From Rhodoligotrophos defluvii (GTDB lineage: Bacteria; Pseudomonadota; Alphaproteobacteria; Rhizobiales; Im1), in assembly GCF_005281615.1 (NCBI RefSeq), contig NZ_SZZM01000001.1, forward strand, positions 124,272 to 188,271: DNA of 64,000 nucleotides, in the 5' to 3' direction. A program made the position numbers and the translations under genes. The notes under the pieces are model-generated. The model made no database searches. It was not told where the DNA came from and was given only the letters and a program-made list of their open reading frames with translations. Position 1 is the stretch's first letter; each line of letters begins with the position of its first letter. This document shows, in pieces, positions 9,402-28,424 of this stretch.

Positions 9402-9791
9402 ATCCGCCGCTTGGTCATGCGCCCGTGACGCGGAACTGCTGGCTGTCCTCCCAGCATAGACCTGCAGCCCCGTCCCTGGCAACGCGACGCATCCCCACGA
9501 GTTGCCGAGAGGGTTATCCAGACGCAAAAGAAATCTGGACCGCGCATCCGGCTGGTGCAGCCACTCGGCTTGCGCGGTGGCCGCTTTGGCTCTAAATAGG
9601 GCCACACCAGGCCGGGCCCCTCTGGCAGTTCTGCTCAGGCAGGCTGTGATGTCGGACTGGACGACCACGGAGTGGCCGGCCAATGGTTTTCGCGCCTGTG
9701 AGTGGTCGAGGCATCCGCTTCGACCGCGCAAGCTGCCGAATCCCGGTCCGCCGCCTCCGCTCGTCTTTATGGACAGCGATGGACCGTTCGG
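9402..9791. other. Divergent intergenic region, rpoE / TerC-type gene
   Basis: 390 bp between two divergent genes. It should carry the promoters of rpoE-chrR and of the TerC-family gene. I compared it with the yybP-ykoY manganese riboswitch that precedes some TerC genes and saw no matching core. Open frames crossing it are high-GC shadows. No other feature was found. Confidence 0.5.
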
Positions 9792-26772: not shown

Positions 26773-27519
26773 CTACCGCCCGCCAGCCACATCGACTATA
26801 GCACCGGTCACGTAGGACGCGGCATCCGACAGCAGCCAGGCGATCACCTCGGCAACCTCGTCGGCACTGCCGGCGCGCTTCATCGGTGTGGTCGGCGCAA
26901 GGCGCTCGAGCCGGTCGTGCAGCCCGGCCCGGGCATGGATCTCGGTCTCGATCAATCCCGGCCGCACCGCATTCACCCGAATGCCCTCGTCTGCGACCTC
27001 GCGGGCAAGGCCGAGGGTGAAGGTGTCGATCGCGCCCTTGGATGCGGCATAGTGAATGAACTCGTTGGCGCTGCCGATCCTGGCGGCCATCGAGGACACG
27101 TTGACAATGGCGCCGCCCTTGCCGCCGTGGCGGGTGGACATGCGGCGGACCGCCTCGCGCGCCGGGATCAGGCTGCCGAACACATTAACGGCGAGCACCT
27201 CGGTGAGGTCGCGGCCGGCAAGGTTCTCAAGCCGGCCTGCAGGCCCGGTGATGCCGGCATTGTTGACCAGCGCGGTGATCCGGCCGAGATCGCGGTCGAT
27301 TTGCTGGAAGAGCGAAACGATCTCCTGCTCGTCGGCCACGTCGGCCCGGTAGATCCTGGCCTGTACACCCTCGGCCGCCACCTTCGCCGCAACCTGCTCC
27401 GCCTCTGCCGCTGCCCTGCCATAGGTCAGCGCGAGATGATAGCCCTGCTTGGCGAGACGGATCGCGGTCGCCGCGCCGATGCCGCGGCTGGCGCCGGTGA
27501 CGACAGCAAGCTGTGTCAT
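26773..27519 (-). CDS. SDR family NAD(P)-dependent oxidoreductase
   Basis: 248 residues. Cofactor motif VTGASRGIG near 7-15, NNAG at 86-89, the catalytic Tyr157 and Lys161 in YAASK, and Ser143 nearby. It is a classical SDR of the FabG-like type, and the substrate is unknown; the YgfF group of SDRs with glucose dehydrogenase-like activity is similar in motif order. The start at 27519 is set by GAGAGGAGG. It is followed by the acid phosphatase gene on the same strand (57 bp). The gene diverges from a short transcription unit whose promoter is only 56 bp from this start. Confidence 0.92.
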   Translation of the reverse strand: MTQLAVVTGASRGIGAATAIRLAKQGYHLALTYGRAAAEAEQVAAKVAAEGVQARIYRADVADEQEIVSLFQQIDRDLGRITALVNNAGITGPAGRLENLAGRDLTEVLAVNVFGSLIPAREAVRRMSTRHGGKGGAIVNVSSMAARIGSANEFIHYAASKGAIDTFTLGLAREVADEGIRVNAVRPGLIETEIHARAGLHDRLERLAPTTPMKRAGSADEVAEVIAWLLSDAASYVTGAIVDVAGGR

Positions 27520-27574
27520 GAAACCTCCTCTCGCTCTCCTTATGGCCCACAACTGGGCGCTCGTAAAAATTCAG

Positions 27575-27604
27575 CTTACAGCGCCGCAAGAGAGAGGCTA
27601 TTCT
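27575..27604 (+). promoter_or_regulatory. Candidate promoter of the 27-codon gene
   Basis: CTTACA at 27575-27580 and TATTCT at 27599-27604 are 18 bp apart. They resemble the rhizobial CTTGAC and TATAAT-type hexamers. A start near 27611 would give a leader of about 30 nt before the small open frame. Confidence 0.4.
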
Positions 27605-27624
27605 GTGGGCGTCGTCAACAGTTT

Positions 27625-27640
27625 GAAAGGAGGTGATCCA
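27625..27640 (+). promoter_or_regulatory. Extended Shine-Dalgarno, fully complementary to the 16S rRNA 3' end
   Basis: GAAAGGAGGTGATCCA is the exact reverse complement of the alphaproteobacterial 16S 3' end (TGGATCACCTCCTTTC). Sixteen paired bases is far more than the four to seven found at ordinary genes in this window. It is directly followed by a GTG start codon at 27641, which is closer than optimal for the GGAGG core (spacing about 8 from GGAGG, so acceptable). Confidence 0.75.
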
Positions 27641-27724
27641 GTGTCTCATTGTCGAGCTCCACGAGGAACGGATGATGCGCGCCGGGTCTTTGCCTCTCTC
27701 GGAGATGCTGCGCGCGCAGTCTGA
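27641..27724 (+). CDS. 27-residue small protein of unknown function
   Basis: The reading frame starts at GTG 27641 and ends at TGA 27722-27724. The peptide is MSHCRAPRGTDDARRVFASL then GDAARAV: basic, one Cys, no membrane segment. It lies between a promoter-like pair (27575-27604) and a strong hairpin terminator (27765-27792), so it forms its own unit of about 180 nt. The Shine-Dalgarno is perfect over 16 bases. I do not recognise a named family. It could be a leader peptide, a small regulatory protein, or an RNA that acts by binding the 16S 3' end; the coding reading is favoured because the frame is open and the start spacing fits. Confidence 0.6.
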   Translation: MSHCRAPRGTDDARRVFASLGDAARAV

Positions 27725-27764
27725 GGTTTCGCCCGGCTGAACGCCGGAGCGTGGATGACAATGG

Positions 27765-27792
27765 AAGGGCCGCCCACCCCCGGGCGGCCCTT
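27765..27792 (+). terminator. Intrinsic terminator of the small gene
   Basis: AAGGGCCGCCC (27765-27775) pairs perfectly with GGGCGGCCCTT (27782-27792) around a 6-nt loop, an 11-pair stem that ends in TTC TCC. It follows the small open frame by 40 bp. Confidence 0.8.
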
Positions 27793-27812
27793 CTCCGCAT
27801 TATCCGCTCAAG

Positions 27813-28424
27813 CCGCCATGCCCAACGCGCCCAGCCGGGCATCCAACGCCATAGGGCACAAGCATTCCCCTGGGGGCCCTGGATCACCCGGTCAAGCCGG
27901 GTGATGACGATTTGCTTTGTTAACCAATACCTCACGTCATGCCCGGCCGCGCCTAGGCGCCGAGCCGGCACCCAGAGCCACACGGCGCGAGCTTTCCCTG
28001 GGGGCCCTGGATCACCCGGTCAAGCCGGGTGATGACGATTTGCTTTGTTAACCAATACCTCACGTCATGCCCGGCCGCGCCTAGGCGCCGAGCCGGCACC
28101 CAGAGCCACACGGCGCGAGCTTTCCCTGGGGGGCCCTGGATCACCCGGTCAAGCCGGGTGATGACGATTTGCTTCGTCAGCCAATACCTCAGTCATGCCC
28201 GGCCGCGCCCTAGGCGCCGAGCCGGCATCCAGGGGCCACACGGCACAGGCTTTCCCTGAAGGCCCTGGATCACCCAGTCAAGCCAGGTGATGACGATTTG
28301 CTTCGTTAGCCAATACCTCAGTCATGCCCGGCCGCGCCTAGGCGCCGAGCCGGCATCCAGGGGCAACACGGCACAGGCTTTCCCTGGGGGCCCTGGACTG
28401 CCGCGCCAAGCGCGGCAATGGCAT
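27813..28424. repeat. Tandem array of a 128-bp unit, about five copies
   Basis: Units begin GTCATGCCC at 27936, 28064, 28192 and 28321 (periods 128, 128, 129); a more diverged one starts near 27813 and the last is incomplete. Each unit has a palindromic GCCCGGCCGCGCCTAGGCGC part and a hairpin ATCACCCGG-TCAAG-CCGGGTGAT. In the fifth copy the hairpin is replaced by TGCCGCG-CCAAG-CGCGGCA, so the structure is kept and the stem sequence changed. Units of the type GTCATGCCCGGC...GCCGGCATCCAGG are common intergenic repeats in alphaproteobacteria. No open frame of note is found in the array. The unit is not spaced like CRISPR. Confidence 0.9.

Follow-up and report, generated by a model that had tools for sequence, protein, structure and literature searches.

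An extended Shine-Dalgarno mini-gene in Rhodoligotrophos defluvii, a probable ribosome-responsive RNA of the rreB/rreR kind

The closest described counterparts of the locus reported here are rreB and rreR, which reportedly have open reading frames (ORFs) of 14 and 18 amino acids and a 17-nt Shine-Dalgarno (SD) sequence, associate with 30S subunits and are weakly translated. The kind is reportedly defined by a stretch of 16 nt or more that can pair with the 16S 3' end and precedes a short ORF. We analysed a stretch of 64,000 nt of the Rhodoligotrophos defluvii genome (the window), which holds a very short ORF with its start codon immediately after an SD of this length. We take the element to belong to the rreB/rreR kind. 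It is probably a free-standing small mRNA of ~180 nt that acts as a ribosome-responsive regulatory RNA. An earlier note on this DNA had held that a small protein or a translation-regulating RNA at this site would be new; the kind has been in the literature as rreB/rreR since 2017 (Hahn et al. 2017, RNA Biol 14:1353, as cited in PMC7298713).

Layout of the element and pairing to the 16S 3' end

Read on the + strand, the site consists of the extended SD GAAAGGAGGTGATCCA (27625-27640), a GTG (27641-27643), 27 codons in all, a TGA (27722-27724) and a GC-rich hairpin. The claim of a 16-base SD exactly complementary to the 16S 3' end, followed by GTG and 27 codons, was confirmed on the coordinates and on 16S ends of the same order; the G of the GTG even lengthens the match of GAAAGGAGGTGATCCA from 16 to 17 bases. 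The duplex of the site with 16S has an energy of -28.4 kcal/mol, and under uniform composition an exact 16-mer is expected by chance 3e-5 times on both strands of the window. Among the 56 other likely genes of the window the best SD match over candidate starts is 3-8 bases, with a mode of 5; the earlier note had given 4-7 bases for ordinary genes. With its complementarity of 16-17 bases the RNA would be capable of engaging the anti-SD, as had been proposed.

The 16S complement was judged on 16S ends from other genomes of the same order. Eight of the 30 fetched same-order loci with the site were 16S-type ends reading AGAAAGGAGGTGATCCAGCC on the complement, and the three of these that were checked all proved to be RF00177. 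Since they were retrieved by the pattern itself, such ends show that this 16S end exists in the order, not what share of ends deviates from it. A typed alphaproteobacterial 16S end used as query matched 237 plasmid records, of which 209 matched at 99% or above.

Upstream of the SD lies a weak promoter-like pair on the + strand (27575-27603), CTTACA (27575-27580) and CTATTC (27598-27603) separated by 17 nt, from which a transcript would start at about 27610. The promoter-like hexamers of the earlier note are visible, and both same-genus copies (L016, L018) have similar -35/-10-like hexamers at the same spacing; the pair is, however, a poor match to sigma-70, and a consensus scan of 27400-28000 recognised neither promoters nor terminators. 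The strong terminator of that note stands with regard to its stem, a predicted terminator-like hairpin (27765-27792, + strand) of 11 GC-rich base pairs with the loop ACCCCC, but the scan did not recognise it and its tail in this strain (CTTCTCCGC) is T-poor despite the strong stem. A T-run is present in the relative L018. The unit is conserved and appears independent, as suggested earlier.

The element is present in a single copy in the source genome. A scan of the whole window against Rfam at gathering score found only tRNA and terC and no family at the element, and units of such kind are thus easily missed in annotation. The terC RNA motif (RF03067) lies at 9604-9664 and scores 54.9 bits. 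Between the element and a cold-shock gene, 27860-28410 holds four to five units of ~120 nt, near-identical by eye, with CCTGGATCACCCGGTCAAGCCGGGTGATGACGA palindromes.

Distribution and reading frame

Judged from pattern scans, the window element is a widespread alphaproteobacterial mini-gene and not strain-specific. The strict pattern with a nearby TG occurs in 14 of 41 genomes, a count that takes in the source genome and the two other members of its genus. The exact 18-mer including the start codon was found in 33 of 385 genomes of the class, at one site per matching genome, and a relaxed SD-start pattern in 140 of 297 genomes of the order, with two sites only in G455 and G656; a few of these 140 genomes have a different spacing, possibly by chance. 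Reversed-pattern controls gave zero matches in the strict, exact and relaxed scans alike. A scan of named species genomes yielded at least 116 stretches with the pattern; among the matches listed, most are alphaproteobacterial (Rhodobacterales, Hyphomicrobiales, Caulobacterales, Acetobacterales, Azospirillum and others) and some come from other phyla. The distance from site to start is near-fixed: when the start codon was left out of the pattern and 30 loci were read, all 22 exact sites outside 16S ran directly into ATG or GTG.

Several side observations concern this range. Outside the Alphaproteobacteria the same extended SD with ATG or GTG precedes ORFs of 9-16 codons in L069, L070, L072 and L139 (Phycisphaerae-titled), L079 (Planctomycetaceae), L100 and L117 (Lujinxingiaceae, Myxococcales), L078, L135 and L154, and our own finder calls terminator-like hairpins in L069, L070, L072, L078, L079 and L139. 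A Rhodobacterales-like 18-aa version (MSKAILEIEVRKIGGNGI) also occurs beyond the Rhodobacterales, in L173, whose record is titled Pararhizobium sp. In L113, L148 and L162 (Azospirillum) and in L032, L045 and L089 (Geminicoccaceae record) the extended SD stands before ORFs of 56-59 codons whose beginning resembles a signal peptide by eye; one of them, L148, gave no Pfam match.

Concerning the reading frame, 154 distinct elements were collected and 138 were used for frame and codon counts. Sixteen were removed by hand beforehand, 14 of them not alphaproteobacterial by title and two alphaproteobacterial, with ORFs of 39 (L035) and 33 codons (L158); L150, titled Gammaproteobacteria, was retained. 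Frame 0 is open for at least 14 codons in all 138 elements and reaches its stop at 14-30 codons in 132, while a stop before codon 14 interrupts frame 1 in 48 and frame 2 in 55 elements. In a non-redundant set of 80, early stops number 0, 27 and 36 in frames 0, 1 and 2, compared with 36% after composition shuffling. The ORF stop lies before the terminator stem in 124 of 124 elements with a terminator call.

The peptide itself is not conserved. Changes at codon positions 1/2/3 are spread about evenly in four sets (50/57/55, 48/46/43, 27/29/30 and 12/11/13), and the synonymous fraction lies near the neutral expectation in four sets out of six (observed/expected 0.25/0.25, 0.27/0.30, 0.32/0.28 and 0.31/0.28). 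The two remaining sets are too small to judge: Bradyrhizobium with five changes (0.20 observed, 0.27 expected) and Bosea with three sequences, which leans synonymous (0.39 against 0.22). The window and L018 have 20 of 27 residues in common, with differences at codon positions 1/2/3 of 4/4/7; for the window and L016 the figures are 10 of 27 and 11/8/11. A Pfam search with the 27-aa peptide found no match. The conservation check in alphaproteobacterial genomes that the earlier note had called for thus found the element widely kept and the peptide sequence not, and the near-neutral amino-acid changes in four of six sets, the other two being too small, speak against its small protein.

Since the frame is kept while changes fall about evenly over codon positions with a near-neutral synonymous fraction, it seems that translation of the mini-ORF (27641-27724) is under selection and its product mostly is not. 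In L155, a Brevundimonas subvibrioides record, one base is apparently inserted right after the GTG and the downstream frame is soon restored; its 5' arm of the stem described below is intact, and its own 3' arm pairs better than any of 51 other arms.

Long-range stem and alternative folds

Codons 2-5 of the mini-ORF (TCTCATTGTC in the window's clade) pair with bases just 5' of the terminator (GACAATGGA), forming a stem that we call P1; at the same register another clade has AGTGAG paired with CTCAC. In the window fold the 5' arm, TCATTGTCG followed by TCCAC, lies within codons 2-8 (27646-27662) and the 3' arm, CGTGGATGACAATGGA, at 27750-27765, both on the + strand. The inner part of P1 covaries within the genus, being CCACG/CGTGG in the window and CCGCG/CGCGG in L018.

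For statistics the 3' arms were positioned by the terminator and aligned blind to the 5' arms. This was done for 122 of the 154 elements: 19, the window copy included, were left out for lack of a finder-called terminator, and a further 13 were excluded, of which L033, L035, L037 and L158 are alphaproteobacterial. Removal of redundancy then left 52 elements in the arm-pairing energy test and 113 in the paired-cell test. Over the 52 distinct arms an element's own arms pair at -6.34, compared with -4.42 (sd 0.27) for permuted arms, and none of 500 permutations reaches the observed value. Paired cells amount to 509 of 791. Over 1000 permutations the figure is 348 (sd 14) and never exceeds 394, and shifting the register by 1-3 gives 273-334; the distant registers 14 and 35 still reach 49% and 52% pairing, compared with 64% for P1.

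The signal differs by clade. Permuting arms within groups, 0 of 300 permutations reach the own-arm value in the MS-type and 1 of 300 in the window's type. In the Rhodobacterales type 207 of 300 within-group permutations reach it and none of 300 do with arms of other groups; P1 of the Bradyrhizobium type is weak (22 of 300 within the group, 34 of 300 with other-group arms). P1 with compensatory changes is, on this comparative evidence, well supported in the window's clade and in the MS-type clade. In 72 of 72 elements the folding energy of the complete element is lower than the average obtained with its middle shuffled; for the window copy taken alone it is unremarkable (-85.0 against -81.1 shuffled, sd 4.7).

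Within the ORF, CGGGTCTTTGCCTC (27683-27696, + strand) is a possible anti-SD mimic, which pairs with the SD in one fold of the window. Over 153 of the 154 elements, non-alphaproteobacterial ones included and one being too short, the SD/mimic duplex has a mean z of -1.04, and in 41 of these 153 at most 5 of 100 shuffles match it. The window's own mimic has a z of -0.8, with 20 of 100 shuffles equally good, and is not significant alone. The place at which the SD can pair differs by clade: for much of the window's type (CTGGATCNTCGCCTC) it is ~42 nt past the start, for the MS-type (GGAGCAGCCT) ~49-57 nt and for the Rhodobacterales type mostly ~100-115 nt. Opening the SD costs more than the mean of eight shuffles in 48 of 72 elements. 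By hand count this applies to all seven elements of the Bradyrhizobium type, to 18 of 21 in the Rhodobacterales type and to 12 of 21 in the window's type, in which the cost is hardly raised; for the window itself it is unremarkable (3.50 against 3.60 shuffled). Uniform sequestration of the SD by an anti-SD mimic was considered and is only partly supported.

With an assumed transcript start at 27607 the window RNA is predicted to fold with P1 closed and the SD mostly free (-85.4), and with an assumed start at 27610 with the SD paired to the mimic and P1 open (-85.0). Two folds of near-equal energy hint at bistability in this model.

Neighbourhood, rival readings and known systems

In 31 of the 37 Rhodobacterales-type loci a gene with the GGQ motif of ArfB lies downstream, one tested example of which has an RF-1 domain by Pfam; in 27 of these 31 (two ambiguous) no more than 170 nt separate its Met from the terminator. 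Both neighbours are on the strand of the element in 32 of 37, and upstream of the elements a transporter sequence cluster recurs in 35 loci, one tested member being Vut_1 (Pfam). In loci such as L055, L065 and L086 the arfB-like ATG often stands close behind the terminator and has no obvious SD, but is preceded by TATGGT/TAAGGT-like bases at a distance of a few nt; the arfB-like mRNA may possibly be leaderless there. Nine Hyphomicrobiales-type loci have a common neighbour cluster, one tested member of which is DUF188. The window element lies between an SDR gene on its left and a gene with two cold-shock domains on its right, both on the minus strand, and the co-directional gene behind the terminator that most Rhodobacterales-type loci have is absent. 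The arrangement of the Rhodobacterales type would suit a cis attenuator, with translation of the mini-ORF controlling read-through into the next gene. Of the 103 other alphaproteobacterial loci, 45 have a next gene that runs in the direction of the element and 51 one that runs against it, with no call in seven (counted with a crude gene caller, the window twice), and a general attenuator outside the Rhodobacterales type is unsupported by so mixed a picture. With the window's own next gene on the minus strand as well, we regard attenuation as improbable.

The kept frame would also suit a small-protein gene in which a functional peptide of 14-30 residues is made from the strong SD, and the same SD precedes ORFs of 57-59 residues in Azospirillum and Geminicoccaceae that look signal-peptide-bearing by eye. 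We think such a gene unlikely, given near-neutral codon changes, just 10 of 27 residues in common between window and L016, and a 27-aa peptide without a Pfam match. As the frame is kept open while the protein sequence is not preserved, it is more likely that the element works as a ribosome-binding RNA than through a useful peptide. The pairing of 16-17 bp at -28.4 kcal/mol could equally serve an untranslated sponge that merely ties up the anti-SD, yet all 22 sites read lead straight into a start codon, which together with the kept frame makes this very unlikely. That the motif is the reverse complement of the 16S end, and that genuine 16S ends match it, might point to a 16S remnant or a chance match. 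The bases after the motif are not 16S and no Rfam rRNA match lies at the element; wide conservation with a zero reversed control refutes this reading, to which we give practically no credence.

The preferred reading, that of a ribosome-responsive regulatory RNA, would work as follows. The leader, through its near-maximal pairing to the 16S 3' end, would capture 30S subunits, and the mini-ORF would be translated, its amino acids being irrelevant. A ribosome crossing codons 2-5 would open P1, which would otherwise be closed on the bases 5' of the terminator, and in some clades the internal anti-SD mimic would also compete for the SD. Ribosome engagement would hereby set the fold and lifetime of the RNA. 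Very strong translation of the mini-ORF, one option of the earlier note, would run contrary to the weak translation reported for rreB/rreR. From the arfB neighbourhood alone, a link of the element to ribosome state is suggested.

More tentatively, the elements may serve as ribosome sensors across the class Alphaproteobacteria. Extended SD, anti-SD mimic and P1 would compete within a bistable RNA, and free 30S subunits would be read out by translating a sequence-neutral mini-ORF that is retained for this act and not for its product, and that lies beside the ribosome-rescue gene arfB in Rhodobacterales; we hold this possible but rather unlikely. To our knowledge, genes that are maintained because they are translated, while their product is not conserved, have rarely been shown outside leader peptides. 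If our reading is true, the class would offer a natural means of probing the sensing of free ribosomes by cells, and the arfB neighbourhood in Rhodobacterales makes such sensing directly testable.

Among known systems, rpsU of Flavobacteriales is alike in that an extended SD is tied to control via the 16S 3' tail; there the SD precedes a ribosomal-protein gene and ribosomes hide the anti-SD, whereas the window holds a free-standing mini-ORF (PMC9976891 for rpsU). The Bradyrhizobium type, that of rreB, differs from the window in its weak P1 and in an SD more closed than in shuffles in 7 of 7 (hand count). ORFs of 14 aa in Bradyrhizobium-titled records and of 18 aa in the 37 Rhodobacterales loci agree with what is reported of rreB and rreR. 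Reportedly, rreB of Bradyrhizobium shares with the window an extended SD of 16-17 nt, a GTG, a very short ORF and a small terminator-ended transcript; it has 14 codons instead of 27, and the peptides are unrelated. Likewise, rreR of the Rhodobacter/Roseobacter line is reported to have the same SD and start, a short ORF and a terminator, but its peptide and RNA sequence are different and it has the arfB-like neighbour that the window lacks. The kind is already known; the open frame maintained over a near-neutral peptide, the covariation in P1 and the arfB-like neighbour in Rhodobacterales would add usefully to it.
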